DNA of 64,000 nucleotides from Stieleria maiorica (GTDB lineage: Bacteria > Planctomycetota > Planctomycetia > Pirellulales > Pirellulaceae). Of this stretch, positions 22,453-51,183 are shown piece by piece. The notes beneath the pieces were generated by a model, which did not search any database, was not told the DNA's origin, and worked only from the letters and a program-made list of their open reading frames with translations. The stretch lies in the NCBI RefSeq assembly GCF_008035925.1, contig NZ_CP036264.1, forward strand, positions 2,786,443-2,850,442, given 5' to 3'. The translations under genes and the position numbers were made by a program. Within the stretch, counting starts at the first letter, position 1; each line of letters opens with the position of its first letter.

Positions 22453-22588
22453 GACAAGAGTTCGGTGGGCGATTCACAGTTTCCGGAAAACGAGTCGAGC
22501 GGGAATCCTAGTTCCGTGATGTCGGCAAGAGAAGTGGGAGACGATCCGAATGATACACGAACCGATTGGAATGCTTGACAGTCGACGA

Positions 22589-24412: not shown

Positions 24413-24450
24413 CGTTGCGGAATACGGTTGATCGGGTGTGGCCGTTGATT

Positions 24451-24518
24451 CGACGTGGCTACGCTCGGTGCGAGCGTGGAAAGCGTCGGGGATCCACCTT
24501 CTGGCGAAGGTAGCTACG
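24451..24518 (+). repeat. bipartite two-hairpin repeat, copy B
   Basis: First arm GTGGCTACGCTCGGTGCGAG, second arm CCACCTTCTGGCGAAGGTAG. It fills the gap between the sulfatase stop (24565) and the fucosidase start (24412), so it could act on their shared transcript. Confidence 0.85.
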
Positions 24519-24564
24519 TATTGGGTGGCGTTTCTTTGAACGATTGTCTTGGGTTTGGTGCTTG

Positions 24565-25983
24565 TCAGTCCGAAGAGCCTTCTCGCAAGGACGAAAAGTT
24601 CTTCGGATCGGGTTTGGCGGGAAGCGTCGCTTTCCACTTTGTAAGTTTGGCGACCAGATCGGCGACCACCTGGGGACGTTGTTGATGTAAATCCTTCTGT
24701 TCATACGGGTCGGCAACGATGTCGTACAGTTCGACATAGTCCGAGTCGACATCGCTGAGCAGTTTCCAATTCTGATCGACGATGCAGTAATCGACCCAAT
24801 GAAAGGAGTCGGCGAGTCCCGGTTTGCCCTTTCCGCTCATCTTCCAAAACAACGGTTTGCTTCGACCGTCGCTGGTCTCGCCCTGCAGCGTTTTGACCTG
24901 GCTGATACCGTCGGGCACGTAAGATTCCGGCAACGAGGCACCGGCGATTTCACAGAACGTCGGCAACAGGTCCACCGCGGACATCATCGCGCGATCATCA
25001 ACATGCCCCGCGGCGACTTTGCCCGGCCAGCGGACGATGAAGGGGACATTGATCCCGCCTTCGAACAATGCCGCCTTGTACCCTTTGCGGCCGGCCGTGA
25101 TTCCCTTGGCCGCTCCGATCCCGAACCCCGCCCCCGTGGCGGTATCGTAACTGAGCGAAAGTTCCGTCCCGGGGCGGGCCCGTGCGGGCCCGTTGTCCGA
25201 GCTGAAGATGACCAACGTGTCGTCGGTCAGGTCCAGCCGGTCCAACGCATCGAGCACCTGGCCGATCCGATCGTCGGCGTGCGACAACACCGCCGCATAG
25301 ATCTCATCGGGTTCCTCGAGACCGCTGTTTCGAAACCGCCAGCGATACTTCGGCACCACATGGAAGGGCGTGTGCGGTTCGTGAATCCACAGGTTGATAA
25401 AGAACGGTTGGCCCGCTTGATGACTTTGCTCGATAAATTCGATCGCGTGGTCGGCATCTTCGTGAACCGGCATCTGCTCGCCGGAACAGTTGAACGCACC
25501 GTAGGTGTCATAGCCGTACAGTCCCGGTGATGGCGAATCGGGAATCATGTCGTTGGCCAGATGCCACTTGCCGAAATGGGCCGTCGCGTAGCCGACGTTT
25601 TGCAACAAGCGGGGCAGCGTCACGCAATCGGTCCCCAACCAGTCGGGCATGTTGCGTTTGGCGTTGCTGGGCACCCAGGCAAAGTGTCCGTCGATGTTGT
25701 ACCGAGCGGGAAAGTGTCCGGTCATCACCGCGGTCCGGCTGGGCGAACAGACTCCGCTGGCAACGGTGAAGCGATGGAAATCCGTCCCCTCGCGGGCCAG
25801 CCGATCGATGTTGGGCGTTTGGACATACCGATGGCCGTGGCAGCTGAGGTCTCCCCAGCCCCAATCGTCGGCAAAGATGAACAGAATGTTCGGACGCGAC
25901 GGTTCAGCAGCGACTGTTGAAGTCAGTGCGACGTAGGACGCTACCAACAGCAGTAAATATGCGGCAAAGACACGGGATTTCAT
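24565..25983 (-). CDS. type I sulfatase, secreted
   Basis: A 472-residue enzyme from ATG 25983 (MKSRVFAAYLLLLVAS), which opens the signal peptide; an earlier in-frame start adds 15 polar residues. The N-terminal metal site is PNILFIFADDWGWGD (Asp 39/40). The formylglycine motif is CSPSR with Cys near 79, the Cys-type that needs a formylglycine-generating enzyme. HFGKWHL and FSSDNGPARARPG supply further active-site residues. It removes sulfate esters from carbohydrates, probably outside the cytoplasm. Position upstream of fucosidase and fucI suggests sulfated fucose glycans, an inference from context only. Confidence 0.92.
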   Translation of the reverse strand: MKSRVFAAYLLLLVASYVALTSTVAAEPSRPNILFIFADDWGWGDLSCHGHRYVQTPNIDRLAREGTDFHRFTVASGVCSPSRTAVMTGHFPARYNIDGHFAWVPSNAKRNMPDWLGTDCVTLPRLLQNVGYATAHFGKWHLANDMIPDSPSPGLYGYDTYGAFNCSGEQMPVHEDADHAIEFIEQSHQAGQPFFINLWIHEPHTPFHVVPKYRWRFRNSGLEEPDEIYAAVLSHADDRIGQVLDALDRLDLTDDTLVIFSSDNGPARARPGTELSLSYDTATGAGFGIGAAKGITAGRKGYKAALFEGGINVPFIVRWPGKVAAGHVDDRAMMSAVDLLPTFCEIAGASLPESYVPDGISQVKTLQGETSDGRSKPLFWKMSGKGKPGLADSFHWVDYCIVDQNWKLLSDVDSDYVELYDIVADPYEQKDLHQQRPQVVADLVAKLTKWKATLPAKPDPKNFSSLREGSSD

Positions 25984-26116
25984 GGTTGTTATTAATCTTG
26001 GTGCCGATGGGGAACGCTGGCCAGTCACACCCTCGTAGTCTACCGCAACTCAATTGACGTACTTGACGATGCGTTCCGAGAGTCGCCGTGTTCTCCGAAC
26101 TCGGCGCGCGAAAAAG

Positions 26117-29453: not shown

Positions 29454-32369
29454 CTACCGCACCACCAACTCTTGAAACGCCGTGTTTTCACCTCGGCCTG
29501 TGACCGGTCGAACACTCCACAGGATCCAACGAAATCGCCCCAGGTTGCGTCCCGGTTTGGCACGAATCGAGACGGCATTAAAATCCTCGTGGGACGCCGC
29601 ACGGGTGTCGATTGATGTCAGTGGCGTGAACTTGGAGCGATCCCCGACATTCCAACCGGGATCGGACTGCGAATCGCTTCCATAGACCGTCCATCGTTGT
29701 GCACCTCGGACTCCGCCATAATTGGCAGACCAACTGGTGATCGACGAAACGTCTTTCAGTTCTCCCAGGTCCATGCGGTAAGCGCCGGCCGTGACGCCAT
29801 TGGCGAAGACCGGGCCGTATCCCATTTCGATCTTGCCGTCGGTCAATGTCGCGAGCGATTCATTGCGTGGGGTGGGCTGGGCGTCCACCTTGCCGGTCGT
29901 TGGACTTTGCAGAATCACCGTCTGGAAACCGTCAGGATTTGGAGCGGACTCGAACAGGATTCCTGGGGCGTGCGGATCGGACAGCGAGATCGTTTGTTGG
30001 TTTCGAATCACCTTCAGTACCAAGGCGTTCTCGCGTAGCTGTTGATACGCCGCCAGCAACTGAGCGACGCGAGTGACCGCAGTTCCATTGATTCCCTGAA
30101 CCAAGTCACCATCGCGTAAGCCCGCTTTGGCCGCGTCGCTGATCGGTGTCACCTTTGAAACCACGACGCCACCTTCTTCTTGAGAGACCCCATAGGCGGA
30201 GAACTCGCTGCCTTTCAGATCGCTGACCGCGGCTCCCAGCCAATACGTCGTCGTCGGTTTTCCGATCCGGCCGCTGTCGGAGCGGGGTTTTGCCATTTCC
30301 TGCTTGACTTCCAAGGCGGGGATTTCCGGCGTGCGCGCGATCCGCTTGAACGCCGGTTTCTTGACGCCGAACTGACCCATGGCAAAGTTTTCGAATCCGA
30401 TCTTCAGTGCCGGCGAATCAGATTGCACGCGAAAATCACCGGCGGCCGGATCGATGAACTTGGGATCGGCGACGATCGAGTTGCGATCCCAGCCGAAGCT
30501 GGCGTAGCGATCCTTGATCGCCGGGACGTGTGCGTAGTACAGATTGCCGTCGACGCGTTTTCCTTTCGCCGTTTCGGTCGGCATCCGCGCCCCCTGTGGC
30601 GCGGCCATGAAGATGTTGCCAAAGACTTCATCGCCGCTGTGGTTGTACCATACATGCGGATGCAGCCCGTTGTTGACGGTGATATTGTTCCACGCGCGGC
30701 GACGGAACCCCTCGCGCAGCTTCAATCCGCCGGAAAGCATCAGGTTGTTGTAGATGTCGTAGTTGGACGACCCGTCATCCAGATCGATGTCCCAGCCATG
30801 GTCGCAGCGCCATCGGCTGTCGCGAATCACGGTCGTTTCGACCGCATCCAGGAAGGGGAACTGCGGTTCGGCGTCGATGACGACTTGGCTGGCGTTGCGG
30901 TCGCTGCTCCAGTAGCGATCGCGCCCCCATGAATTGAATGAACCGTGGTCGTGCGTTTCCTGGACGGTGTCGAACACGTCGCAGCGCTGGATCAAGTGAC
31001 CGCCCCACGCGCCGTCGCCGATGTTGATGCCGGCGCGGGCACAGTCATAGATCGAGCAGTCGCGGACCGTGATGCCTTGTGCCATGGTGATTTGAACCCC
31101 GGCCGGTTGGCGTTCGACGCGACCGATTCCGTGAATCAAACAGTCTTCGACGATGCAATCCGCCGGGTAATTGTCTGTCTTGGGACCGGGTGTGCGATCG
31201 ACCTTGGTCAGATCATTCTTTTGGCGGTATTCGAACAACGGGTCGCGGACGGCATTGGGATCGCCGACAAAGCACACGCCGCTGGCGCCGGTGTCGTGGA
31301 TGTGACAACCTTTGACCAGCGCGCGTCGGTTGTAATTGCTCAGGAAGATTGCGTTGCCGCCGACCTGGTCGAATTCCGCATCCAGGATCCGGACATCTTC
31401 GGTCCCCGCCAGCACGACCGCGCCTCCCCGATAGATCGTCCAATCCGATCGCAACAGCGGCTCCTTGGTTTCCATAAACGTCCGCGCGGCATGCCGGAAC
31501 ACGAATCCCTGCAAGGTGACGAATCGCACGGGATCGTCCGCAGTCCCGTCGAACTGGACCAGATGTCGCAGCCGCACGACTTCGACAACGGCCTGGTCCA
31601 AATCGATGCCTGCCGGAGGCATCAGGTACAGCGTGTTGCTCTTGGAGTCGTGAAACCATTCCCCCGGGGCATCCAGTTCTTCGAAAATGTTTTCCACCAT
31701 CCGATAGTCTTTGTGCATGCCCATTTGACGGTTGTTCTGCCAGCCGCCTTCGTAGGTCACGTCACCGTCGGCGTTCTTGCCGGTGATTCGATAGTGGTAG
31801 CCTCCCCAGCGGGAGCGGTGCATCGCATGGATGAAGCCATCGGTGGGATCCGCCCAACCGCTGGCCCGCTGTCGGGAAAACGCATCGGCGGCAAATCCCT
31901 GGTAGGCCTCGGTCTTTTTGTCGGCGTCGAAGTTCGGATAGCGTGCCATCCGTTGCTTGCGTCCTGACAAAAACAACTGGTCGATCGCCAGTCCCGGTTT
32001 GGTGCTGGCCGCGAAGATGCCGTCGCGGTAAGGCCTCCATTGCAAGTCCAGCTTGGTTCCGCCGCTGAGTACCGCGCCGCCTTCGTTTTCGGCGCGGTAG
32101 GTCACGGGCCATCGTTCCGTTCCCGAATCGGCTGCGGTGAACGTGAACGTTTCACTGAGGTAATACACCCCGTCGGCAACCGACACGGTCACGGCGGCCT
32201 TGCCGGCCGATCGTCGCGCCAAGTGCTGAGCGCGGGCGAGACTAGCCAGTGGCGCGGCGGCCGATCCGTCTCCCGCGTCATCACCGGTCGGGCTGACGAA
32301 GATCTCGAGGGCCTGGGAACAGGGGACGCCCAGGCCGAAACAAATCAGGAGCAAGAAGATTCGAAGCAT
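29454..32369 (-). CDS. secreted right-handed beta-helix protein with PDZ domain
   Basis: A 971-residue protein with a signal peptide (MLRIFLLLICFGLGVPCSQA). Residues 20-650 look like a parallel beta-helix of the pectate-lyase-like kind: an N-terminal IFVSPTGDDAGDGSAAAP opening typical of such proteins, and many short strands ending in Asn/Asp (DCIVEDCLIHGIGR, TVRDCSIYDCARAGINIGDG). Near 760-850 there is a PDZ-type domain (GGVVVSKVTPISDAAKAGLR, DGDLVQGINGTAV), and the last 120 residues look like a discoidin-type beta-sandwich (YRMDLGELKDVSSITSW). Likely a polysaccharide lyase or hydrolase; no catalytic residues could be assigned. A XylR-type regulator lies 16 bases upstream on the same strand. 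Confidence 0.75.
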   Translation of the reverse strand: MLRIFLLLICFGLGVPCSQALEIFVSPTGDDAGDGSAAAPLASLARAQHLARRSAGKAAVTVSVADGVYYLSETFTFTAADSGTERWPVTYRAENEGGAVLSGGTKLDLQWRPYRDGIFAASTKPGLAIDQLFLSGRKQRMARYPNFDADKKTEAYQGFAADAFSRQRASGWADPTDGFIHAMHRSRWGGYHYRITGKNADGDVTYEGGWQNNRQMGMHKDYRMVENIFEELDAPGEWFHDSKSNTLYLMPPAGIDLDQAVVEVVRLRHLVQFDGTADDPVRFVTLQGFVFRHAARTFMETKEPLLRSDWTIYRGGAVVLAGTEDVRILDAEFDQVGGNAIFLSNYNRRALVKGCHIHDTGASGVCFVGDPNAVRDPLFEYRQKNDLTKVDRTPGPKTDNYPADCIVEDCLIHGIGRVERQPAGVQITMAQGITVRDCSIYDCARAGINIGDGAWGGHLIQRCDVFDTVQETHDHGSFNSWGRDRYWSSDRNASQVVIDAEPQFPFLDAVETTVIRDSRWRCDHGWDIDLDDGSSNYDIYNNLMLSGGLKLREGFRRRAWNNITVNNGLHPHVWYNHSGDEVFGNIFMAAPQGARMPTETAKGKRVDGNLYYAHVPAIKDRYASFGWDRNSIVADPKFIDPAAGDFRVQSDSPALKIGFENFAMGQFGVKKPAFKRIARTPEIPALEVKQEMAKPRSDSGRIGKPTTTYWLGAAVSDLKGSEFSAYGVSQEEGGVVVSKVTPISDAAKAGLRDGDLVQGINGTAVTRVAQLLAAYQQLRENALVLKVIRNQQTISLSDPHAPGILFESAPNPDGFQTVILQSPTTGKVDAQPTPRNESLATLTDGKIEMGYGPVFANGVTAGAYRMDLGELKDVSSITSWSANYGGVRGAQRWTVYGSDSQSDPGWNVGDRSKFTPLTSIDTRAASHEDFNAVSIRAKPGRNLGRFRWILWSVRPVTGRGENTAFQELVVR

Positions 32370-32385: not shown

Positions 32386-33600
32386 CTATTGGTCGTTGGG
32401 ATCGTTTGTGGTGGCCAGGGTGTCGCGTTCGGTCTGATGCTGCGATCGATACTCGCCCGGGGATTGTCCGAGTTCGCGTTTAAAGACCGAACCGAGACTT
32501 TCTTTGTGGCTGTATCCGGTCTTGAATGCGATTTGTTCCAACGTCATGTCGGTCTCCCGCAGCAATTGTTTGACGCGATCGAGTTGGGTCAGGGTGATCT
32601 GTTGGTGCGGCGTGCGGCCCAAGGCTTCGCGGAACCGGCGTTCCAATTGTCGTCGGGAAAGTGAAGTGAACTGTGCGACGTCGCCGACGTTGATGCCCTG
32701 GCAGGCGTTCTGGCGGATGAATCGGCACACGCGTGCGATTTCGACATCATCGACCGCGACCACCTTGGTCGACAGACGCTCGGAAACCGTGACCGGCGCG
32801 ACGTATTCGATCTCGTTTTCCGGACGCCAGCCGGTCAGCATTTGTTGCAAGATCTCCGCCGCCCGATACCCGACGCGCTCGGCATTGGGGCGGACGCTCG
32901 ACAGCGGCGGATCACACAACAAGCAGATCGCGTCATCGTCATCCACGCCGATCACGCCCAAGTCGTCCGGGACCGCGATGTTCGCCAACCGGCAGGCATT
33001 GAGGACCTGTTGGCCGCGGATGTCGTTACAGACAAACAACCCGGTGGGGCGCTCAAGAGCGGACAACCATTGCGCCAGGGACTCCAGTTCCAGCACCCCT
33101 GCCTCTTCCAACTGTGTCAGCGTCGTGCCGGGCACGCCCGGTGATTGGTAAACATCGAAGGGACAGTCCGCGGCGTCGACAAGTTGTTGGAACGCCGCCA
33201 GTCGGGCATCGGAATAGGTTGCAAAGCGAAACCCACAGAATGCGAATCGGCGGAACCCGCGTTCCCACAAATGCGTGAACGCCATCTCCGCCACGCGTTT
33301 GTTGTCCGTTTCCACCTGCGGCACACCGGTGAATTTTCGGTTGCATCGGACATCGATGATCGGAACACGCAATTGGCGAAGCGGCTCGATCGTATGCCAG
33401 TCCACGCGGGCGATCACACCGTCGATGCGTGAATTGAAAATCCAATCGGGGATCGCCGAGTCCAGCGTCATCTCTTGGTGCAACAGCGACCATTCCACTC
33501 GCGTGCGTGAGAACAACGCAACGCCGCGTAGCAGTTCCCGCCCGTAAGCGCGCGAGGCTTCGACAAGTAGTGCGATCCGGGGTCGATTGGTTGGATTCAA
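32386..33600 (-). CDS. XylR-type AraC-family transcription regulator
   Basis: About 404 residues if started at TTG 33600 (LNPTNRPRIALLVEASRAYG); no ATG fits the conserved N-terminus, and a TTG at 33705 is also possible. Residues 10-280 form a LacI/periplasmic-binding-protein-like sensor domain (PIIDVRCNRKF, DDLGVIGVDDDDAICLLCDP). The last 100 residues are an AraC double helix-turn-helix (DVAQFTSLSRRQLERRFREA; MTLEQIAFKTGYSHKESLGS). E. coli XylR has the same arrangement and similar length. It probably senses a sugar and controls the beta-helix gene 16 bases downstream, an inference from position. Confidence 0.82.
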   Translation of the reverse strand: MNPTNRPRIALLVEASRAYGRELLRGVALFSRTRVEWSLLHQEMTLDSAIPDWIFNSRIDGVIARVDWHTIEPLRQLRVPIIDVRCNRKFTGVPQVETDNKRVAEMAFTHLWERGFRRFAFCGFRFATYSDARLAAFQQLVDAADCPFDVYQSPGVPGTTLTQLEEAGVLELESLAQWLSALERPTGLFVCNDIRGQQVLNACRLANIAVPDDLGVIGVDDDDAICLLCDPPLSSVRPNAERVGYRAAEILQQMLTGWRPENEIEYVAPVTVSERLSTKVVAVDDVEIARVCRFIRQNACQGINVGDVAQFTSLSRRQLERRFREALGRTPHQQITLTQLDRVKQLLRETDMTLEQIAFKTGYSHKESLGSVFKRELGQSPGEYRSQHQTERDTLATTNDPNDQ

Positions 33601-34142
33601 TGCAGCCTGCCTATGACGTGCTCTCCACCTGTGTCGCAAAACGCCGTCTGCGTGTCGCAAATCATTCGTCAGTCGGTCGCGAGCTTGCGACGACGGACCG
33701 TCCAACGAAAGCTACCAGAAAGCCTTGCGGACCGCAAATCAGTCGCCTTGCGTCGTGTCAATTCATCTTGGCCACATGTGTCACCTGAGGCGCTGCGTGT
33801 GTGAACGGGCGTTCGGTGGATCGGCGGCGCAGGGGGATTCGCTAGTCGGATCGGCTTTCAGCGGGATGTATCACGCCCAGTTGGTTTACTCGTTGTTAAT
33901 GAATGAGCAGAGCGATACGAGCCCGAAGCGCGAGCGAGCGGATCCGCCCTCTCCCCCTTGCTCGCGCTGCGGGCTTGTCAATCAACAGGCCGCTGACACG
34001 TCATGAACACGCCGACGCAAATCGTTTGTTGGTCGACGCAATAAATTATTTCCACCCCGCCTGGACGATGGTACCGTGGCGGCGGATCGGGGGGCTCCGC
34101 CCGGCCACTTACTATTCTCTTCTTTTTCCTAAGGTCATTTGT
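33601..34142. other. divergent intergenic region before DUF1559 gene
   Basis: These 542 bases carry the upstream regions of the XylR-type and DUF1559 genes. Apart from the 22-bp inverted repeat at 33917-33978 I see no gene. A pyrimidine-rich stretch (TTCTCTTCTTTTTCC) precedes the DUF1559 start. Confidence 0.5.
33917..33978. repeat. inverted repeat with two 22-bp arms
   Basis: Left arm 33917-33938 contains GCCCGAAGCGCGAGCGAG; right arm 33957-33978 contains CTCGCGCTGCGGGC. The arms match at about 19 of 22 positions, around an 18-base centre. Repeats of this AAGCGCGAGCGAG kind are typical intergenic elements in planctomycete genomes (from general knowledge). Confidence 0.75.
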
Positions 34143-36248: not shown

Positions 36249-38114
36249 CTAGATCACTGTTGTGTTGGTTTTGCCGGAGTAAATGCTGTCGACGCTCGCG
36301 TCCTGTTCGATGATCCAATCCAAGGCAGCAAGCAGGTGAGAGGAATTCGTCCGCTGACGAGATGATTCACCACGTCGCTCCAATTGATCGAGTGGTCCAA
36401 TGCCGAGAACATGGTATCCGTGCGATGCAATCTCGTTCAGAAAATTCTTGTGTTCATCGGTTGTGTTTGCACACGCACCGTTCCACCACAACAGTATCGG
36501 TAGCTTCCGTTCTCTCCCAAAAGCAGACAAATACTTGGGGCGATAGATCGTCATGCCGGCTAGCGTTGTTGACTCCGTGGCGATCGCCGAATAGGGACCT
36601 TGTCCACCATCTTCCACCTCAATTTGCTTTGGTGATTCTGCTTCTTGGTCAGCCTCTGTTTCATCGGTCAGCTCGATAATTTTGGCATAGGCGGGCTTGG
36701 GATTGTTGTTCCCGTCGAAGAGTAGCGGATATTGTCCCCAGCGCCACGTGCGTCGGTCGTTCAGACCCCAGAAGGTGACTCGCTCAATGACCTTTTCGTG
36801 CTTGCCAAAAATGGCGAACAGTTTGGCGTAGTCTTCGGCTTGTGCGTTCAAGTCTTCGAGCGAAGGCGGAGTGTTGCTGCGGAATCGACGCCTTCCGAAT
36901 TGACCGCCGGAATCACCACGAATCGTGACGTCGAGCTCTGTGATGCTGACCTTCAGTCCAAGCGATGCATAGTCGGTGATCGCCTTTTCGATGTCTTCGA
37001 AAGGAACTCGCCCGCTTCGCCAATGCCCTTGGATGCCGACGGCATCGATGGGAGCACCCTCGGCAAGCAGTCGTTCAAGCAGCACCATCGAACTTGCATG
37101 CTTGGGTCCCGATTCGATGTTGTAGTCGTTGTAGTAGAGCACCGCATCGGGATCTGCCTGTCGAGCAAACTTGAATGCCAAAGTGAGAAACTCGGGGCCG
37201 AGCGTTTGCAACCAATTCGAGTTGCGTAGATTCTCCGTCTTCGCGGTTTCAGAGTTCCCACCATCGTTGATGGCTTCATTGACCACATCCCAACTCTGCA
37301 ACTTCCCTTTGTACCGTCCCGCAAGCGTGTCAATATGTTGTTTCATTCGCTGCTTGACCGTCTCGGGATCGCGCCCCTCGAAGAACCAATTGGGCGTCTG
37401 CGCATGCCAAACCAACGTGTGGCCGTGAATGGTCATGTCGTTCTTTTCGGCCCATTCCACGAGAGCATCGGTCCGCTGGAAATCCCAACGATCTTCTGCC
37501 GGGTGAACTCGCTCGGGCTTCATGCAGTTTTCGGGAGTGATCGCGGCAAAATGCTCTGCGGCTAGTTTCAACTCCTCTTCCGAATAACGCGAAGGAAGGT
37601 CACCGGCCATGCCGACCAAGAATGAATCTTTAAACGCGTCTTTGATAAGGCGATCGATTCTGACTTCGACCACTGGTGTGAAATCTTCCTTCGGTGGTGG
37701 CTCGGGAAGCTCACGCGTGGCAAGCGACACCTGGCCGCCCCGCTCTCCAAATGACCTTGTTATCGCGAGATCCTTTCCTTTGCGTTCGCCGCTGTACTCA
37801 ATACGAAACTCTCGGTCGCCGAACTGGCGGACCTCTGCAAAACTGAGTGAATCGTTGTTGACTTTCACATCGACGAACTCGACTTTGCGTTGATCGTCGC
37901 GAGTATCCACTTCCGCGTGTGCGGCTGCATCGCCGGCGTCATTGATCGCAATATGGAAGCGGTAAGTCTGCAATCCGAAGGGGGAATCGAATTGGCAATG
38001 CCAAGTGCCAGTCACACTTTCGGAATTCTGCTCTGACAAAGCATTTTCTTGGCCCAGCGTGAACGTGGCGGACAACGCGATGCAGCAAAAGCCAACAATC
38101 GATTGAAATGACAT
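36249..38114 (-). CDS. GH10 endo-beta-1,4-xylanase with truncated esterase tail
   Basis: A 621-residue secreted protein. Signal peptide residues 1-21. Residues 35-135 are a beta-barrel-like module also found in the neighbouring esterase. The GH10 barrel spans about 150-480: TPENCMKPERVHP, the acid/base Glu 280 in SWDVVNEAI, the nucleophile Glu 393 in SITELDV, and GLNDRRTWRWG. From about 505 an alpha/beta-hydrolase domain starts (TIYRPKYLSAFG, PILLWWNGACANTTDEHKNF) but stops at SGKTNTTVI, just where family members reach the nucleophile elbow, so the esterase part is inactive. The xylanase part looks intact. Last gene of a three-gene operon, 54 bases after the esterase gene. Confidence 0.9.
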   Translation of the reverse strand: MSFQSIVGFCCIALSATFTLGQENALSEQNSESVTGTWHCQFDSPFGLQTYRFHIAINDAGDAAAHAEVDTRDDQRKVEFVDVKVNNDSLSFAEVRQFGDREFRIEYSGERKGKDLAITRSFGERGGQVSLATRELPEPPPKEDFTPVVEVRIDRLIKDAFKDSFLVGMAGDLPSRYSEEELKLAAEHFAAITPENCMKPERVHPAEDRWDFQRTDALVEWAEKNDMTIHGHTLVWHAQTPNWFFEGRDPETVKQRMKQHIDTLAGRYKGKLQSWDVVNEAINDGGNSETAKTENLRNSNWLQTLGPEFLTLAFKFARQADPDAVLYYNDYNIESGPKHASSMVLLERLLAEGAPIDAVGIQGHWRSGRVPFEDIEKAITDYASLGLKVSITELDVTIRGDSGGQFGRRRFRSNTPPSLEDLNAQAEDYAKLFAIFGKHEKVIERVTFWGLNDRRTWRWGQYPLLFDGNNNPKPAYAKIIELTDETEADQEAESPKQIEVEDGGQGPYSAIATESTTLAGMTIYRPKYLSAFGRERKLPILLWWNGACANTTDEHKNFLNEIASHGYHVLGIGPLDQLERRGESSRQRTNSSHLLAALDWIIEQDASVDSIYSGKTNTTVI

Positions 38115-38168
38115 ACGGCGATATCCGATGTGGTTTTGGAAGTTGCAGTGATCAATTGGCGAAATGGC

Positions 38169-41483
<3,315 letters not shown>

Positions 41484-41495
41484 TCACCGTCAGGT

Positions 41496-44400
41496 CTAGT
41501 GAGCTTCACCTGCAAACTCGACGGTCACCGCAAACACGAGCGGAAGCGAAAAGTCACCGCCTTTCAAGAATTCGATTTTCGTAAGTGCTTTGTCAGCTTC
41601 GGCGGGAATCTTCAAGTAGCGAATTTGCTTGCCGCCAGCTTCAATCGCCTTCTTCGATTCCGGCACATCCTCGCCCGCTTGGTAAGTCACGATGTGCTTG
41701 CCGTTGACCAATTCAAAGTCACTTGTGCTTCCGTCAGCGTAATGACGACGGACGATCATGCTGGTCGTTTCATCCTTGAAACGTGGGTAGGCAGCCCAGG
41801 CGACGCCCCCCAATATGTGAATCGTTTTCACGTTTCCAGCGCAGTCGAGGCTAGCCGATTCTGGCAACGTGCTTGGGAATCGCGATGATTGACGTTGCAA
41901 ACCGATGATATTGGCGATCCGATCTCCCTGGGGATCGACCAATTCGAACGGAACGCCCTCGACCTCTACACGCCCATAGGAATCGAGTACAAACTCGTCT
42001 CCAGGTCGTCCGCGGAATCCGGGGAGGCCTTTTTTGCTGTTGATGGTCGCAGAGTTAGAGATGTTCAGCGGCGCGTACTTGCCACGTTTGGCAAGAAACG
42101 AAAGCAGATCCGCCATTTCAGTTTTACTGATCGAGCTTTCAAAACCCTCTGGCATCAATGACTTGTGCGACGAAGTCAATTGCTCGATGTCTTCGCGAAG
42201 GACCAGCTTTTCTTTGCCTTGCGTGTCGATGATGCGTAGCGAGTTTGCCGACTCGCCGGCTAGCATTCCGGAGAGCACATTTCCGTCGACGGTCAAAATC
42301 TGGTACGTGCGGAAGTTGCTTTCGACGCTTCGCGATGGATCGAGGACGTTCATCAAGATTTCTTCTTTGGGATGAACCGCCATGCCGGTCAAGTTAGGAC
42401 CGATTTCTTGCCCGATTTCGCCATGAATGTGACAAGCCGAACAATGCTTCTTGAACATCGCCAGGCCGTTCGTCACATCGCCTTCCACGGCAGCGACCGG
42501 TAACCATTGATCGACCAATGCTTGGCGATTAGATGTTACCATCGCACCTCGCGTTTCCATCAAATCCTTCGCTCGCGATGCTATCGATGAGGTGGGGTGG
42601 TTCAGTAAGGCTTGGCGTTGATCGAGCTGAAGATCATTGAATTGCACTTGTCCATCGGCAATGGCGTCCAGCAAATCTTCAGTGCTGTCGGCTCGGGATA
42701 AAAGCAACGTCAGAACTTGGCTACCGAGTTTTGGACCCAGCGAGGATTTCATGTCCAACAACGTTTCGGAAAGACCATTCACGCGGGCGGCCTGCAGTGA
42801 GTTCAGTGCCGCGATCCCAGTTTCTGGAGCCAGTTGAGGTGTAAAGAATGCCTCAACCGCGTCGAGAATCTTTGGACTCATTGGTGCAAGGCGAATCGCT
42901 TGATCCCAAGCACTCAGACGCTTCGCTGAATCGGCATCCGCGTCCAAAGCGGTTGTCAGCAGATCGTCCTGTATTTCACTGACGATCTCGTTTAGGTTCG
43001 TGATCGACCACTTGTCGGCTACCGCCAGGATCGCGGCTTTGCTTTCGACCGAAGTGTCGTTGGCTAAGAACCGGTCACGAACAATTTTCTGCGATGACTC
43101 GGGAAGATTAAGAACCAGATCTCGCGGCCAACCCTTTGCCAAGCCTTCCCAGACCGTGACGGCGACTGGTGAATCGGGCGAGATTTCAAGCAGCTCGCTG
43201 ATTTGCTCAGCCGCGGGATTGCTCCTCGCGAGGTGCTCCGCCAGAACGGAAATCCGTTGACCCAGCGAATTCGCGGCGGACGGACTCATCTTGCCGAGCG
43301 CCACGATCGCCGCAGCAGGATCGGTCGAAGCAGCGGCAGTCCATGCGTCCAATAAAACGCTATCGTCTTCGATCGAAGATACCAAGCCAGCAAGCTCGTC
43401 ACCGTTGATCGCAGCGTTCGCTTTTCCTTCGGCAACGCGCAGCAACAAGGTCAATCGCACTTTGGGGTCGACGTCGTTTTGCAGACCCGCTTCAATCGCC
43501 TTGGCGACTTGACCGCTACCGCAACTCGCGATTGCCGCGTTGCGCACGGGGCTGGATACATGATCGAAACCGGCGGCACACGCCTTTGCCAGTGCAGCGA
43601 CTGCTGACTCGTTACCCGGTTCCGACAAGCCTGCGAGCGTCCAAATCGCATGCATCGCGGCTGGGTTCAATCCGATCTCGTCGACTTGATTGTTGTCGAC
43701 CAATGAAACGAGAGCATTGAGCGTCGCATCGTCAGTCGCCGCACGTTCGACCAAAAGACGCTGTGCCGTTCGACGCCAAAAGAAATTGTCGTTACTGAGT
43801 GCCGCAACCAACTTCGCGTTCTCTGCATCAGCGAGTTGTAACGTTCGCGTCGCAGAGCCGCTGCCGGCCTCGTCGGTCACCAGTCGATAGACTCGGGCAA
43901 AACGTTTGTCGCGCAGGTCACTTTCATACGCAGCCCCTTTACCGGTTTGGAAACCGTTGGGCGTTGGGTTGTGCTGAACAATGTAGTTGTACCAGTCCAA
44001 GACCCAAACGTTGCCATCGGGACCGACCTCCGACATGATCGGCGCCGACCAGTCATCGATGCTGGCAACCGTGTTGAACATGTTCCGACTGCGATAGCTT
44101 GCACCGTCCTTCTCCAGCACGAACGAACCGACGAGATGCCCCGTCGGACCGCAGACCATTTGAATGCGGTTCCACCAAGTCGGTGGATAGTTGCGTGCGG
44201 TGTAGATTGCTGAGCCGCATCCGGCCGTGAATCCGCCGTGCCAGTCGACCTGACGGATGCGATCATCGATCGGGTCGAATCGATGTGACTGGGCAATATT
44301 CTGAAGAGTCTCGGGCGACCAGCCGGCGACTTGATCGTAGTACCGGTTGGGGATCGGCATGTGAACGCTCGGGCAACCGTTGGCCGTTGAACCAAAGACA

Positions 44401-46094
44401 TAGCCTTCCTCGCTGAAACCTAGCCCCCAGGTGTTGTTGTTCGTGCCTCGCATGAACTCCAATGTATCGACACGGATTGTGTGCTGATCGAAGTCGCTTG
44501 ATTGGTTGTCTGCGACTTTGCCCGTTTCTGCGTCGATCGCATAGGCTGGCGCTGTCTCATCCGAGGCACCCGCCTTGACCTTGAATCGCCAAAACCCTTG
44601 GCGGAAACGCATTTGCGGTTCGCCGTTGATGACGGGCTGGGAATTGTTGTAGCCCTGCATGCCCCAGATCCAATTGTCGGGGCCATACTGAAAATTGCTA
44701 ACGCCGCCGTGGGTGTCCCCCAGCGCCCAGCCGGTAATCAGCGACTGTCGAAAATCAGCTTTGTTGTCGCCATCGATGTCCTTCAAATAAATCGTCTCTT
44801 CGCCGTCCTGGACGATCGCACCACCCCGGTAGCAAACCAATGTCGACGGTATGCTAAGGTTTTCCGCAAAGACGGTGAACTTATCGGCCTGGCCATCGTT
44901 GTCGGTATCTTCGCAAATCTTGATGCGGTCGCGGCCGACAGCTGATTTTTCTTTCAGTTCATTGGGATAGTCCACCGTTTCGCAAATCCACAGACGCCCG
45001 TCCTCGTCCCAGGTCATTGCGATCGGCTTGCCCTTTAGCCCCGCGGTCTTGTCCTTTTGTTGGCGATCGCTGGGCCACTTGTCGGTCGACTCCTTGGCCC
45101 AGATTGCAAGATGCATGCCTTCCGGAGTCGCGAATGCTTTGATGGATTCTTCTGCTGGTAGAGGATCTTGCATCTTCGAGAACGGTTCGGCCTGCGTTCC
45201 CCACTGGGCACCCGGCGTGTAGTTGGGGATCTTCGCCCCCACGTCTGTCGTTGCAAATTGTTCATCGTCGACCGAAGGCGGATTCATCGCCGGCGCGGAA
45301 AAGGGACGATTCGCAGCGACGACCGCACTCGCTTTGGGATCTGTAGGTTCAACACTGTCGGCCGAAGCTGCGGTGAGCGTCTGACCACAGGCCCACAGAA
45401 CACCGCGTGCGAGCAACTTTTGAAAGTCATCGTTGGACCACGTCCGATGATCGTGACCCCACGCGGTATAGAAAACGCGTCCTTGTCCGCTCGTCCGAAT
45501 CCATGTGTAGGGTTCACCATCGGGATCGCTCACGGGGCCGGATTCGTCGCTCCGTGTCTCAAGAACGGTCATGTCCGGGTTGAGCTTGCTGTGGCGGTAG
45601 CTTTCGTCCATCGACCGAACCGGTTTCAGCCCCCGCATGATCTCATGGTCAGAAGCCACGATCTTGGTTTCAAAGCGAGTGAACCCGTGACTTCGAAACT
45701 GACCGCCAACCAATTCGATGTACTTATCGGAATTGAGAAAACAGAACGACGCGCAGTGAACAGGAATCAGGCCTCCACCATTGTGAACATAGTTCAGCAG
45801 AGCCGACTCGGCGTCCGGTGTGATTTGCTCAATGTTTGCGAAGACCATCAGCCCTTCATAATTGGCGAGATGATCTTCGTTGAGGTCGCTCAGTTTCTCC
45901 GTGTAAGTAAATTCGATCCCTTGCTCTCGGAGCGGCCCAGCCAAATGCCGATAGAATTCGGATGGCCTATGGAATCCTCTGTCGCCAAGCATCAATACCG
46001 AGACTTGCGATTCCTGAGCCGATGCGAAGCCGCAGGCGAGAAAAATAAGGATGAGCAGATTTGCAGTTGCAGCGTGTTTTGATAGAGCAGTCAT
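41496..46094 (-). CDS. ThuA/PVC-type dehydrogenase/HEAT/cytochrome c giant protein
   Basis: About 1532 residues from ATG 46094, where the signal peptide begins (TANLLILIFLACGFASA); upstream codons are not protein-like. Residues 25-250 form a ThuA-like (class I amidotransferase-fold) domain with NGGGLIPVHCASF. A PVC-type dehydrogenase beta-propeller covers about 270-760 (TWDEDGRLWICETVDYPNE, WDWYNYIVQHNPTPNG-like region). HEAT-like helices run about 790-1150. A cytochrome c domain has CSACH near residue 1218 with GPNLTGM after it. The last 180 residues resemble a carbohydrate-binding sandwich (DFSLPLVFAVTVEF). It probably oxidises a sugar and passes electrons to the heme. First gene of the xylan operon. 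Confidence 0.85.
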   Translation of the reverse strand: MTALSKHAATANLLILIFLACGFASAQESQVSVLMLGDRGFHRPSEFYRHLAGPLREQGIEFTYTEKLSDLNEDHLANYEGLMVFANIEQITPDAESALLNYVHNGGGLIPVHCASFCFLNSDKYIELVGGQFRSHGFTRFETKIVASDHEIMRGLKPVRSMDESYRHSKLNPDMTVLETRSDESGPVSDPDGEPYTWIRTSGQGRVFYTAWGHDHRTWSNDDFQKLLARGVLWACGQTLTAASADSVEPTDPKASAVVAANRPFSAPAMNPPSVDDEQFATTDVGAKIPNYTPGAQWGTQAEPFSKMQDPLPAEESIKAFATPEGMHLAIWAKESTDKWPSDRQQKDKTAGLKGKPIAMTWDEDGRLWICETVDYPNELKEKSAVGRDRIKICEDTDNDGQADKFTVFAENLSIPSTLVCYRGGAIVQDGEETIYLKDIDGDNKADFRQSLITGWALGDTHGGVSNFQYGPDNWIWGMQGYNNSQPVINGEPQMRFRQGFWRFKVKAGASDETAPAYAIDAETGKVADNQSSDFDQHTIRVDTLEFMRGTNNNTWGLGFSEEGYVFGSTANGCPSVHMPIPNRYYDQVAGWSPETLQNIAQSHRFDPIDDRIRQVDWHGGFTAGCGSAIYTARNYPPTWWNRIQMVCGPTGHLVGSFVLEKDGASYRSRNMFNTVASIDDWSAPIMSEVGPDGNVWVLDWYNYIVQHNPTPNGFQTGKGAAYESDLRDKRFARVYRLVTDEAGSGSATRTLQLADAENAKLVAALSNDNFFWRRTAQRLLVERAATDDATLNALVSLVDNNQVDEIGLNPAAMHAIWTLAGLSEPGNESAVAALAKACAAGFDHVSSPVRNAAIASCGSGQVAKAIEAGLQNDVDPKVRLTLLLRVAEGKANAAINGDELAGLVSSIEDDSVLLDAWTAAASTDPAAAIVALGKMSPSAANSLGQRISVLAEHLARSNPAAEQISELLEISPDSPVAVTVWEGLAKGWPRDLVLNLPESSQKIVRDRFLANDTSVESKAAILAVADKWSITNLNEIVSEIQDDLLTTALDADADSAKRLSAWDQAIRLAPMSPKILDAVEAFFTPQLAPETGIAALNSLQAARVNGLSETLLDMKSSLGPKLGSQVLTLLLSRADSTEDLLDAIADGQVQFNDLQLDQRQALLNHPTSSIASRAKDLMETRGAMVTSNRQALVDQWLPVAAVEGDVTNGLAMFKKHCSACHIHGEIGQEIGPNLTGMAVHPKEEILMNVLDPSRSVESNFRTYQILTVDGNVLSGMLAGESANSLRIIDTQGKEKLVLREDIEQLTSSHKSLMPEGFESSISKTEMADLLSFLAKRGKYAPLNISNSATINSKKGLPGFRGRPGDEFVLDSYGRVEVEGVPFELVDPQGDRIANIIGLQRQSSRFPSTLPESASLDCAGNVKTIHILGGVAWAAYPRFKDETTSMIVRRHYADGSTSDFELVNGKHIVTYQAGEDVPESKKAIEAGGKQIRYLKIPAEADKALTKIEFLKGGDFSLPLVFAVTVEFAGEAH

Positions 46095-46757: not shown

Positions 46758-47183
46758 ATGCGATTCAGATCTTTGCTCGTTTTTCTATCTTTTACACTCT
46801 CCTTGGTTATTGTGGGTGATTCAGCCGCCCAAGAGAGCAACGGACCAACTGACACGGCCACATTGAAGGAAGTGGTCGGCAATCGCCTTAAGATTGGCGT
46901 TGGGGTGGGTGAACAGATTCTTGCACCTGAGAATTGCATGAAGCCGCAGTGCATTCATCCTGCGGAAGATCGCTGGAACTTCGCCGCACCGGATCGCTTC
47001 GTCGCGTTCGCGAGTCAGAACAATCTGGAAGGTGTCGGTCATTGCTTGGTTTGGGCCAAGGATGATCGAACCGACAAATGGATGAAGAGCGGCAAAGATG
47101 GGAACGCTGTATCGCGAGCCGAATTGCTCGCGAGAATTGAAGGTCACGTCGCCACGGGTGTCCCTTCGGAGACTGATCCATGA
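46758..47183 (+). pseudogene. GH10 xylanase N-terminal fragment
   Basis: A 141-residue frame with a signal peptide (LLVFLSFTLSLVIVGDSAAQ) then clear GH10 sequence: LKEVVGNRLKIGVGVGEQ and ILAPENCMKPQCIHPAEDRW, then VGHCLVWAKDDRTDKWM and LLARIEGHVATGV. About 25 residues normally lying between the GVGV and PENCMKP segments are missing, and the protein stops before the WDVVNEA acid/base motif. So it lacks both catalytic glutamates and most of the barrel. It is the opening part of a second xylanase gene, different from the intact one at 36249-38114. Confidence 0.8.
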
Positions 47184-47780: not shown

Positions 47781-48344
47781 ATGACGAAGATTTTGGTCCT
47801 TTACCATTCCAATACCACGAACACTCAGCGTATGGCGGAGCTGGTGGCTGAAGGTGCGCAGCAGCTCGACGAGACTGAAGTCCGGCTGCGTAGCATTGAA
47901 GAGGCCGATCATGCGGATTTGGAATGGTGTGACGGACTCGCGCTTGGCTCTCCGACCAACTACGGCTGCGTGAGTTGGCAGATGAAACGGTGGTGGGACC
48001 AGCAACCCATTGAAAACTGGGGCAAACGCGACGGAAAGATCGGCTGCGTTTTTTCTTCCGCCGGAGCTTGGGGTGGCGGCCAGGAATGGACCTGCATGGC
48101 ATTGCTGTCCATCCTGATCAACTACGGTTTTCTCGTTTTCGGCTTGACCGATTACTCCGGCATCAAGTTCTCGGCTCATTACGGAGCCATATCCGCGGGG
48201 GCACCTGAGGAGGAACGAGTTCAGGAGGCTTGTCGCCGACTCGGGAGAAGGTTATCCGAGTGGACGGCAAACATGATTCATGGACGAACGGAGGCACATC
48301 CTTTGAACCAGTCCTACGAACGTTTTAAAGACCTAGGCAAATAG
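47781..48344 (+). CDS. flavodoxin-fold NAD(P)H-dependent oxidoreductase, WrbA-like
   Basis: A 187-residue protein. The flavin phosphate-binding loop is ILVLYHSNTTNTQRMAELVA at the N-terminus; then GLALGSPTNYGCVSWQMKRW near 50-70 and VFSSAGAWGGGQEWTCMALL near 88-110, the WrbA/NQO-type pattern. It probably reduces quinones in the cytoplasm. It is co-directional with the MarR gene, as is usual for quinone or phenolic stress pairs. About 180 bases follow before the oxidoreductase gene, largely occupied by a palindromic element. Confidence 0.85.
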   Translation: MTKILVLYHSNTTNTQRMAELVAEGAQQLDETEVRLRSIEEADHADLEWCDGLALGSPTNYGCVSWQMKRWWDQQPIENWGKRDGKIGCVFSSAGAWGGGQEWTCMALLSILINYGFLVFGLTDYSGIKFSAHYGAISAGAPEEERVQEACRRLGRRLSEWTANMIHGRTEAHPLNQSYERFKDLGK

Positions 48345-48539: not shown

Positions 48540-49910
48540 ATGAAGCCGCAAACAAGATTCAACCGACGTGATTTTCTTCAAACGACAGCCGCCGCCACTG
48601 CGGCCGGCGTCTTTATAGGTACCAGCTCCGCTTCTCGCGCGCAAGACTCGCCGAATGAACGTCCCGTTTTCGCCACGATTGGACTGCGAAACCAAGGCTG
48701 GACGATCACGGACAAGTCAACCAAGTTTGCAGACTTCGCGGCATTTGCCGACGTCGATGCCAAGGTGCTGGGAGCGATCAACGAAAAGCTCGAGAAGAAA
48801 ACCGGCAAGAAAGCGGAGGGGTACAAGGACTACCGCGAAGTGCTTGACCGCAAGGACATCGACGCAGTGATGATCGCAACACCAGATCACTGGCATACCA
48901 AGATCTCCGTCGAAGCGATGCTTGCTGGCAAAGATGTGTACTGCGAGAAGCCGCTGACCTTGACGATCGACGAAGGCAAGTTGATCGAAAAGATCGTCAA
49001 ACAAACCGGGCGAGTGTTCCAAGTCGGAACCATGCAGCGGACGGAAAACGAACACCGATTCCTCAAAGCCATCGCACTGATCCGTGATGGACGGATCGGC
49101 GAGATCCGAAAGGTGACTTGTGGGATCAACGGCGCAACCGGTTCGCCAGTGATCCCTGCGATCGATCCTCCTGAAGGCCTCGATTGGGACATGTGGCTCG
49201 GCCCAGCACCTAAGGTTCCATATAGAGCGGGGACCGAAATGCGTCAGGGCTATGGTGGCGGCGTACCGCTCTACACCAATTGTCACTATGCGTGGCGCAA
49301 TTGGTACGAAACCTCCGGTGGCCAAATGAATGACTGGGGTGCTCACCACGTTGACATTGCGACGTGGGCATTGGGCGCGAGTGAAACCGGTCCAGATAAA
49401 GTGACGCCGGTCAGCTACTCATTGCCGGTCGAGTACAAGGATGGCTATCCGACGGTCAGCGATCAATACAACTCGCCGACAAAGTTCGAGATCCACGTGA
49501 ACATGCCAGGCGACATTCCAATGATCATCACTAGCGAAGGTGACAACGGCATTCTGTTCGAAGGAACCAAGGGTCGATTCTTCGTTAATCGCGGAAGGCT
49601 GGCGGGCAAGCCGGTCGAAGATCTGGAAACCAACCCGTTGCCTGAGGACGCAGTGGAAAAAGTTTACGGCGGCCCTGTCAGCGAGAATCATACCGCCAAC
49701 TTCATCGAAGGCATGCGAGCGCGTGAACAACCGATCTCCGATGTTTGGACACACAACCGGATGCTCGAAACTTGCCACTTGGCAAACATCGCGATCCGCT
49801 TGGGGCGTGAACTGAATTGGGATCCGACCAAGCGTGAGATCATCGGCGACGACGAAGCCAATTCGTTTCTCTCACGCGAAAGCCGTAATGGCTTTGAGAT
49901 CGATATGTAG
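48540..49910 (+). CDS. Gfo/Idh/MocA-family oxidoreductase, Tat-exported
   Basis: A 456-residue protein with a twin-arginine signal (NRRDFLQTTAAATAAGVFI). The NAD(P)-binding Rossmann part covers about 40-165: VFATIGLRNQG, where the usual GxGxxG is degraded; YREVLDRKDIDAVMIATPDH; and the conserved EKP at 136-138. The C-terminal alpha/beta domain has GGGVPLYTNCHYAWRNW and NDWGAHHVDIATWALG. It probably oxidises or rearranges a sugar or glycoside in the periplasm with tightly bound NAD(P), as for related exported enzymes. A XylR-type regulator follows 109 bases downstream. Confidence 0.88.
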   Translation: MKPQTRFNRRDFLQTTAAATAAGVFIGTSSASRAQDSPNERPVFATIGLRNQGWTITDKSTKFADFAAFADVDAKVLGAINEKLEKKTGKKAEGYKDYREVLDRKDIDAVMIATPDHWHTKISVEAMLAGKDVYCEKPLTLTIDEGKLIEKIVKQTGRVFQVGTMQRTENEHRFLKAIALIRDGRIGEIRKVTCGINGATGSPVIPAIDPPEGLDWDMWLGPAPKVPYRAGTEMRQGYGGGVPLYTNCHYAWRNWYETSGGQMNDWGAHHVDIATWALGASETGPDKVTPVSYSLPVEYKDGYPTVSDQYNSPTKFEIHVNMPGDIPMIITSEGDNGILFEGTKGRFFVNRGRLAGKPVEDLETNPLPEDAVEKVYGGPVSENHTANFIEGMRAREQPISDVWTHNRMLETCHLANIAIRLGRELNWDPTKREIIGDDEANSFLSRESRNGFEIDM

Positions 49911-50019: not shown

Positions 50020-51183
50020 ATGACCCGGCGATCAGTCGCATTGCTTATCGAGACTTCAAACGGCTATAGCCGTGGGCTTTTTGAAGGTGTGATTGCCTAC
50101 ACAAAGGTCCATGGGAACTGGTCTGTTTATTTAACAGAACAGGAGCGTGGTGCCTCTCCCCCCAGTTGGCTCAGGACATGGGGAGGCGACGGGATCATCG
50201 CCAGAATCGAGACCGATGCAATCGGTCGTCAACTTGTTCAGTGCGGAGTTCCTATCGTCGACCTCAGTGCCGCAAGGCATATCAAAGGTGTTCCTTGGGC
50301 AGACACGGAAGACAAGGCGATTGCCAAACTCGCGTTCCATCACTTTGCCGAACGCGGGTTCCGCAATTTGGCTTACTGCGGAGATGCAGGATTTGATTGG
50401 TCACTCAAGCGTGGTCAACACTTTCGTCAGTTCGCTGAATCCGAAGGCTACCGCTTCTTCGAACATCAGTCCGTCGCACGTTACGCTCGAACGTTCAATG
50501 CTGTTACCGAAAAACAGCGAATCATGAACTGGATCCGTGAGCTGCCGCGTCCCATTGGGATCATGGGGTGTTACGACTTCAAGGCACAGGAAGTTCTCGA
50601 TGCATGTCGACAAATGCGTGTTCCTGTTCCAACGGAAATTGCCGTTCTTGGAGTTGACAATGACCACTTGATATGTGAACTGTCGGAACCAACGCTTTCG
50701 AGCATCATCCCTGACACGAAACAAACCGGATTTGAGGCGGCAAGTCTGCTCGATCGTATGATGGACGGCGAAACGATCACCGATGAACAGCCACTGGTCA
50801 CTCAACCACTGGGTGTGAAGCTTCGTGAGTCCACCGACACCGTCGCGATTGAAGACGAGCAAATTGCCAAGGCACTTCAGTTCATACGACGCAGGGCGTC
50901 AGCCAACATTCGCGTCACAGATGTCCTTGAACAAGTAGATCTTTCGCGCCGTGCTTTCGAGCATCGATTCAAGAAACTGGTGGGGGTGACACCACATGAA
51001 GAGATTCAACGAGTGCGAATGAATCGCGCCAAAGAACTACTGCGTGACACGGACCTGACGGTGCCCCAAATTGCCAATCTTTTGGGATTTGAGCATTCGG
51101 AATATCTCGGCGCTGCCTTCAAGCGGGAGGTGGGGGTTTCCCCGGGCGATTACCGACGAAACAGCTCTCACAGCCCTGATTGA
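50020..51183 (+). CDS. XylR-type AraC-family regulator of the xylan island
   Basis: A 387-residue protein, the length of E. coli XylR (392). It opens with TRRSVALLIETSNGYSRGLF, then a LacI-like sugar-sensor domain to about 280 (CGVPIVDLSAARHIKGVPWA, TEIAVLGVDNDHLICELSEP). The AraC DNA-binding region is the last 100 residues (VTDVLEQVDLSRRAFEHRFK, LTVPQIANLLGFEHSEYLG). It is paralogous to the protein at 32386-33600. Position in the island with GH10, esterase and a Gfo/Idh enzyme makes a xylose or xylo-oligosaccharide sensor likely; no operator was found. Confidence 0.88.
   Translation: MTRRSVALLIETSNGYSRGLFEGVIAYTKVHGNWSVYLTEQERGASPPSWLRTWGGDGIIARIETDAIGRQLVQCGVPIVDLSAARHIKGVPWADTEDKAIAKLAFHHFAERGFRNLAYCGDAGFDWSLKRGQHFRQFAESEGYRFFEHQSVARYARTFNAVTEKQRIMNWIRELPRPIGIMGCYDFKAQEVLDACRQMRVPVPTEIAVLGVDNDHLICELSEPTLSSIIPDTKQTGFEAASLLDRMMDGETITDEQPLVTQPLGVKLRESTDTVAIEDEQIAKALQFIRRRASANIRVTDVLEQVDLSRRAFEHRFKKLVGVTPHEEIQRVRMNRAKELLRDTDLTVPQIANLLGFEHSEYLGAAFKREVGVSPGDYRRNSSHSPD

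Follow-up and report, generated by a model that had tools for sequence, protein, structure and literature searches.

Three consecutive genes of Stieleria maiorica encode a dehydrogenase with its own c-type heme (DH), a multidomain esterase (CE) and a GH10 xylanase (XYL). They lie in the 64,000-nucleotide stretch of DNA analysed here (the window), which is located inside one contig of 9.89 Mb. We lean towards the view that they form a cassette for xylan deconstruction, shared by Stieleria and related genera and passed on horizontally, in which the hydrolases cooperate with a dedicated exported dehydrogenase. The architecture, conserved linkage, fusions, purifying selection, horizontal spread and sugar-dehydrogenase-like fold were computed; the export of DH, its substrate, the oxidised position, the cofactor and the electron path are what we infer. 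Functional coupling of DH with the xylan hydrolases is well supported, and DH presumably oxidises xylan sugars. The features of the locus are as follows.

41496..46094, minus strand: DH, 1532 aa from the ATG; predicted exported protein with a ThuA domain, DUF7133/TIGR02604 propeller, helical repeats, TIGR02603 c-type heme and C-terminal domain
45390..45947, minus strand: ThuA domain of DH (residues 50-235)
43878..45029, minus strand: DUF7133/TIGR02604 propeller of DH (residues 356-739), with a conserved D460-T-H462
42087..42482, minus strand: TIGR02603 heme-binding domain of DH (residues 1205-1336), with CSACH at 1218-1222
38169..41438, minus strand: CE, 1089 aa; XynZ-type CE1, CBM48-like-CE1, repeated module and SASA
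40530..41252, minus strand: CE1a of CE (residues 63-303), matching the XynZ esterase 1jjf with 224 bits; in relatives, DH is fused to this module more often than to any other
39363..40409, minus strand: CBM48-like domain and CE1b of CE (residues 344-692), matching the ferulic acid esterase 6rzo with 494 bits, and 7b5v
39051..39350, minus strand: module of about 105 residues in CE, with a paralogue in XYL (33% identity, E 1e-18)
38205..38939, minus strand: SASA (PF03629) domain of CE (residues 834-1078)
36249..38114, minus strand: XYL, 621 aa (771 in G197); module, GH10 and truncated PETase-like hydrolase
36672..37646, minus strand: GH10 catalytic domain of XYL (residues 157-481), with both Glu motifs
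46758..47183, plus strand: remains of a second, divergent GH10+GDSL xylanase (629 aa in G197) whose middle is deleted
47781..48344, plus strand: flavodoxin-like protein
48540..49910, plus strand: Tat-signal GFO/IDH/MocA oxidoreductase
50020..51183, plus strand: XylR-like AraC-type regulator

The three genes share the minus strand and are separated by gaps of 57 and 54 bases. This order, strand and spacing, given in an earlier note on this DNA, were recovered when recomputed from the ORF coordinates, and the domain make-up it described (ThuA, dehydrogenase and cytochrome in DH; two CE1 and a third esterase domain in CE; GH10 in XYL) was confirmed with Pfam and NCBIfam models. The third esterase domain, which the note called CE6, is SASA (PF03629) by Pfam and a putative CE6. 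The N-termini of all three proteins look like signal peptides by eye. The flavodoxin-like and GFO/IDH/MocA genes also adjoin the cassettes of several relatives, and the regulator at 50020..51183 has counterparts of 76-85% identity in five orthologous cassette regions (L043, L059, L062, L208 and L245). A second XylR-like AraC-type regulator flanks the cassette on the other side (32386-33705, minus strand); of the two, only the one at 50020-51183 was met beside orthologous cassettes. Elsewhere in the window, L-fucose isomerase, alpha-L-fucosidase and sulfatase are encoded consecutively (20641-26028, minus strand), possibly as a fucose-polymer cluster near the xylan cassette, and a 971-aa protein (29454-32369, minus strand) combines a right-handed beta-helix with a PDZ domain, which is an odd pairing.

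The ThuA domain of DH (PF06283) scored 130.5 bits against a gathering score of 33.4 (E 1.3e-37), and it showed weak PDB sequence matches to ThuA-like structures. DUF7133 was detected by Pfam with an E of 1.8e-98. Both NCBIfam cut-offs were exceeded (TIGR02604, 180.2 versus 122.2 bits; TIGR02603, 113.5 versus 68.15 bits). With the single CSACH (CxxCH) motif at residue 1218, these curated cut-offs assign DH at the sequence level to the PVC-type heme-binding CxxCH proteins (TIGR02604 + TIGR02603). Helical repeats are visible between the propeller and the heme in a predicted model, and the C-terminal domain had no Pfam match.

Pfam detected two PF00756 stretches and PF03629 in CE, where the Ser and His motifs of the esterases and the GQSN and GESN motifs of SASA are intact. 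The GH10 domain of XYL matched PF00331 (E 5.1e-98) and contains both Glu motifs. We take all of these motifs to be catalytic signatures. The CE1 domains thus classify as putative feruloyl esterases, close to solved enzymes of that type, and XYL classifies by family and Glu motifs as a putative GH10 endo-xylanase. The PDB sequence match 7b5v of the CE1b region is itself a CE1 with an N-terminal CBM. The xylanase-feruloyl esterase equivalog model NF041944 scored 575 and 247 bits at the locus, below its cut-off of 1200.

The cassette in the window is a reduced copy, with a truncated XYL tail and a second xylanase that has shrunk to a remnant. XYL of G197 (L042) has 771 residues and ends in a PETase-like hydrolase; the window XYL aligns with it up to residue 623 and then stops, so that the C-terminal half of that hydrolase is missing. 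In G197, DH adjoins a divergent gene for a 629-aa GH10+GDSL protein. The window retains residues 1-151 of this protein, interrupted by a gap of 16 residues, plus a few at its very end. A working second GH10 gene beside DH was therefore ruled out in the window, the middle being deleted, whereas relatives such as L042 have the complete gene. The remnant and the intact gene of G197 indicate that the ancestral locus probably carried a second xylanase next to DH. In one relative, this second xylanase is a 1476-aa ORF with the order BD-FAE, CE15, GH10 and GDSL (L047:1943-6370).

To evaluate the linkage, 241 genomes of the family were searched with the propeller, and a propeller identity of at least 76% was taken to define an orthologue. 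Orthologues of DH were found in 26 of the 241 genomes (76-100% identity), and several of them are near-copies of each other. The 21 from a first search of 199 genomes are split off from the rest of the tree by a branch with 100/100 support; the tree leaves out the five later ones (G688, G663, G665, G662 and G671). CE1 and/or GH10 is adjacent to or fused with DH in 22 of the 26 genomes. Three others are cut by a contig end downstream of DH (G156, G663 and G108), and G105 is a true exception, with a histidine kinase downstream and neither esterase nor xylanase nearby. One recount over all 26 found CE1 on the same stretch as DH in 22, GH10 in 16 and ThuA in 14. DH is split into two ORFs in G164, G166 and G082. 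A partial orthologue in G034 (85% over 168 residues) lies on a 3.6 kb contig and stands outside the 26.

The linkage is specific to this clade. Among the nearest relatives of DH (62-74% identity), the same test found neither CE1 nor GH10 in any of 13 regions, which are 13 of 25 matches. A Fisher test of 22/23 versus 0/13, the first denominator being 26 minus the three contig-edge cases and the second part of the 25 matches, gave a p of 6e-9; it ignores relatedness and serves only as a guide. Several of the nearest-relative regions carry a GFO/IDH/MocA gene and a XylR-like regulator. The genes of a sister DH subfamily (L217, L218, L219 and L220) adjoin a GFO/IDH/MocA gene but neither an esterase nor a xylanase gene, and form another candidate sugar-oxidation cluster. 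Among 392 genomes sampled from the phylum and searched at E 1e-140 with the best few candidates per genome scored, the only DH matches besides the window were two from another family (68%).

The genome of 9.89 Mb contains 37 DUF7133 stretches, or about 32 genes after grouping, and the expected chance of such a gene within 10 kb of any given gene is about 8%. Order and adjacency nevertheless recur in several genera, so the linkage of DH, CE and XYL exceeds chance, and with the fusions it rules out DH as a chance neighbour. The earlier note had proposed that conserved synteny be sought in other planctomycetes and that a lack of co-occurrence would count against its reading; DH was found with CE1 and/or GH10 in 22 of 26 orthologue genomes, fusions included. 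Its association of dehydrogenase, esterase and xylanase is thus upheld. ThuA, which it listed as part of the set, was rejected as a core part, since it was seen in just 14 of the 26 DH regions and G063 carries CE15 and CE1 in its place.

Seen from the xylanase, the association is looser. Of 199 family genomes sampled, 150 contain GH10. We collected 33 regions from the GH10 side, mostly best hits, of which 29 came from relatives and four from the same genome. In 22 of the 29 (L042-L063), GH10 was at least 66% identical to that of the window, and DH was present in 13 of these 22. The remaining seven have a distant GH10 (34-46%) and no DH. DH is absent from the stretch at nine of the 22 orthologous GH10 loci, one of which is merely a 4.5 kb contig, indicating that the hydrolases do not require DH at those loci. 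G156, G138, G105 and G108 have a GH10 locus without DH and carry DH elsewhere in the genome.

The most direct connection between DH and the hydrolases is fusion. DH and CE1a share one ORF in six of the 26 genomes (G138, G045, G187, G195, G662 and G671), and the open frame of G034 likewise continues from the partial DH into CE1a. In G063, a single ORF of 2403 aa contains CE15 (GCE_fung), CE1, DUF7133, cytochrome c and GH10 by Pfam, the cytochrome falling just below the Pfam cut-off. The esterases occupy the position of ThuA in other DHs, and the frame passes the normal end of DH into GH10. The G063 assembly is fragmented (1270 contigs, 82% complete, 7% contamination); two in-frame joins are unlikely to have arisen through misassembly. 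A 2163-aa protein with the order ThuA-DUF7133-cytochrome-CE1-CE1 is encoded in the complete genome of K23_9 (L103). Its DH part is 63% identical to the window DH and falls outside the DH orthologue clade, which points to a separate origin of this fusion. CE is fused to XYL in some relatives, for example L043. Fusion and clade-specific linkage are the strongest new evidence, and they favour a role beyond hydrolysis. In G158 (L044:7259-16752), DH is followed by an ORF with CE1a and, after about 5 kb of intervening DNA, by a complete CE gene, an arrangement that resembles an insertion with partial duplication.

Horizontal spread was assessed by comparing DNA identity to the window with rpoB identity for each genome. 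In G158, which belongs to another genus, DH, CE and XYL are 95.3%, 89.7% and 86.9% identical, against 78.2% for rpoB; in G011, of another genus as well, the values are 94.4%, 93.3% and 86.9% against 81.4%. Within the genus, DH reaches 95.2% in G127 (rpoB 86.7%) and yet just 74.5% in G148 (rpoB 86.2%). A DH identity of 94-95% in genera with an rpoB identity of 78-81% indicates that the cassette moves horizontally between lineages. A 68-base trace of DH in G151 suggests that the gene was lost there. DH is under purifying selection, with a dN/dS of 0.05-0.16 in four of five comparisons, dS being saturated in the fifth (L045); the ranges for CE and XYL are 0.06-0.13 and 0.09-0.16.

A parallel arrangement exists outside the planctomycetes. 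We scanned the best 80 of 569 CE relatives in named genomes by BLAST with the domains of the window and found DUF7133 at nine of these 80 loci. They include four of 16 planctomycete-titled loci, namely L095 (Stieleria tagensis), L096 (S. sedimenti), L102 and L103, and five of eight verrucomicrobial loci, where another DUF7133 protein lies nearby (L107, L109, L112, L118 and L166). In L107, L112, L118 and L166, the DUF7133 gene directly follows the CE1-bearing gene, with gaps below 40 bases. L107, L109 and L112 have DUF7133 and cytochrome c by Pfam and GH10 by BLAST. L119 and L173 stop shortly after the esterase, and L174 is without DUF7133. The verrucomicrobial DHs are 36-51% identical to the window DH. 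No DUF7133 match was seen at the remaining loci of the best 80 of 569, Bacteroidota included.

The fold of DH was examined with predicted models. For the larger model (residues 250-1345), the fold matches were dominated by helical-repeat proteins, among them the diheme cytochrome c Kustd1711; therefore, the propeller was modeled alone (m686a1075a21b; pLDDT 80.5, pTM 0.86). Its best PDB fold matches are the glucose dehydrogenase of Thermus (2ism), the aldose sugar dehydrogenase of Streptomyces (3das), the Acinetobacter sGDH and AA12 enzymes of Trichoderma and Coprinopsis; 1c9u, 6i1q and 6jt5 are among the top entries. Within the top 50, the sugar dehydrogenases have modest TM-scores (0.31-0.49 of the query), and other propellers match DH too. 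PDB sequence searches with the propeller gave nothing usable. PF07995 (GSDH) did not match four DUF7133 proteins at E up to 10, in a search where the HMMER filters drop most weak matches. In an hhalign comparison with five GSDH proteins of the same genome, the DH segment GDTHGGVSNFQYGPD (the H462 region) stands opposite the GSDH His motif. This profile alignment is weak (probability 12%, E 0.0024, 94 columns); in it, TNNNTWGLGF of DH faces GIRNPWRLAF of GSDH, so that DH has Asn in place of the Arg in the RN motif. Two places in the same genome match both GSDH and DUF7133, which supports a distant kinship of the two families.

The model suggests that DH has a sugar-dehydrogenase-like propeller, distantly related to soluble glucose and aldose sugar dehydrogenases, with a putative cofactor. 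The label of sugar dehydrogenase proposed in the earlier note thus gains support from the fold, the best matches being PQQ sugar dehydrogenases, and finds none at the level of the sequence family. PqqD was not found in the Stieleria genome by a query whose control was positive in three of 14 named genomes. PqqC was likewise not found there; it was found in three of 197 relatives, and its control was positive in none of the 14. Uptake of external PQQ would be a possible route to this cofactor.

We propose that CE would strip feruloyl and acetyl groups from xylan and that GH10 of XYL would cleave the backbone. The propeller of DH may then oxidise a released or chain-end sugar; the electrons may be taken up by the c-type heme of DH itself and from there reach the respiratory chain in the periplasm. 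A xylose isomerase gene is present elsewhere in the genome, so ordinary xylose catabolism is available alongside any oxidative route. The coupled deacylation, cleavage and oxidation of xylan suggested earlier is partly supported: linkage and fusions speak for the coupling, and the PDB matches for a sugar-dehydrogenase fold, whereas ThuA is not essential to the system. The association is real, conserved and unusual, and the data point to something beyond hydrolysis, with the chemistry as what we infer.

DH could alternatively be an oxidative glycosidase. Transient oxidation of the ring, for example at C3, and elimination would break the glycosidic bond, so that xylo-oligosaccharides would be cleaved and not only oxidised at their ends, the keto-sugars being handled by ThuA or the GFO/IDH/MocA neighbour. 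ThuA may have a role in keto-sugar chemistry. It was not detected in 12 of the 26 orthologous DH regions, of which G166 possibly has a split gene. The recurrent GFO neighbour has a weak match to a glycoside 3-dehydrogenase model, at 134 bits, far under the cut-off of 750. Lac161_ORF7, a purified verrucomicrobial protein of the TIGR02604-HEAT-TIGR02603 architecture, freed glucose from lactose with a Km of 1.8 mM (PMC5342196). This architecture can evidently act on disaccharides, which makes oxidative cleavage a live rival; however, the protein is called a beta-galactosidase, and the available part of that report gives no mechanism. Keto-sugar pathways with exported dehydrogenases have been described for lactose, and periplasmic keto-lactose chemistry has been proposed, with other protein families, in the text available of PMC9007349. 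We regard oxidative cleavage as unlikely but worth keeping in mind.

Somewhat less probable still is that DH is a hitch-hiker, a co-inherited and functionally separate exported dehydrogenase, one of dozens in planctomycetes, linked to xylan genes by transfer. The abundance of DUF7133 genes in the genome, the nine of 22 GH10 loci without DH and the horizontal transfer of the cassette are consistent with such an origin. However, two DH lineages are fused in frame to the same esterase family, one of them including GH10 and CE15, linkage is 22/26 versus 0/13 in the nearest relatives, and the arrangement is paralleled in Verrucomicrobia. It is improbable that DH, like fungal cellobiose or pyranose dehydrogenases, bypasses the respiratory chain and donates its electrons to an extracellular acceptor such as an LPMO: AA12 enzymes are among its fold matches and the built-in heme resembles the dehydrogenase-cytochrome layout of the fungal enzymes, but no LPMO-family match was found among the window and neighbouring proteins scanned with Pfam.

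We return to the cassette as a cooperation of hydrolases and dehydrogenase, and compare it with known systems. We take NF041944 to describe the architecture named Xyn10D-Fae1A. Such XynZ-type xylanase-feruloyl esterases (6rzo, 7b5v, 1jjf) share CBM48-like-CE1, XynZ-type CE1 and GH10 with our locus. In contrast, the latter divides these over two genes, adds SASA, the extra module and a cytochrome dehydrogenase partner, and scores far below the NF041944 cut-off. AA12 enzymes can bear a heme domain. With AA12 pyranose dehydrogenase and the soluble quinoprotein glucose and aldose dehydrogenases, DH shares the propeller fold and a weakly aligned histidine motif, whereas it has no PF07995 match, an altered RN motif and a c-type heme behind a helical-repeat spacer, in a genome where PqqC and PqqD were not found. 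DH has the same propeller-HEAT-heme architecture as the PVC-type protein Lac161_ORF7, which in the available text of PMC5342196 is placed in another putative operon and was assayed with lactose as substrate; DH differs by the added ThuA and by its partners, namely feruloyl-type esterases, GH10 and CE15, which are encoded alongside it and, in relatives, fused to it. Multimodular xylanases have been reported in the planctomycete phylum (PMC11131199), in a main text that does not contain the words dehydrogenase, cytochrome, DUF or fusion. Among the matches listed by PMC, which leaves subscription papers outside and does not prove absence, we recognised no paper in which a TIGR02604/ThuA/cytochrome protein is connected with a xylanase or a feruloyl esterase; the available text of PMC11596606 and PMC11791136 holds nothing on the DH-CE-XYL system.

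Tentatively, the cassette may represent a heme-wired class of xylan enzymes, in which removing acyl groups, splitting glucuronoyl esters, hydrolysing the backbone and oxidising the sugars would be one electron-yielding process, in some planctomycetes within one exported polypeptide (G063), with a non-PQQ or PQQ-scavenging propeller dehydrogenase as the redox core. The Stieleria genome has about 32 DUF7133 genes, and one assayed protein of the TIGR02604-HEAT-TIGR02603 architecture was found in the literature (PMC5342196, as far as available). Fusion to feruloyl-type esterases, a glucuronoyl esterase and a xylanase gives one DUF7133 subfamily a concrete and testable substrate, and the natural fusions are ready-made enzymes for assays. 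If the proposed cooperation is true, the breakdown of plant polymers outside the cytoplasm would be linked directly to respiration.
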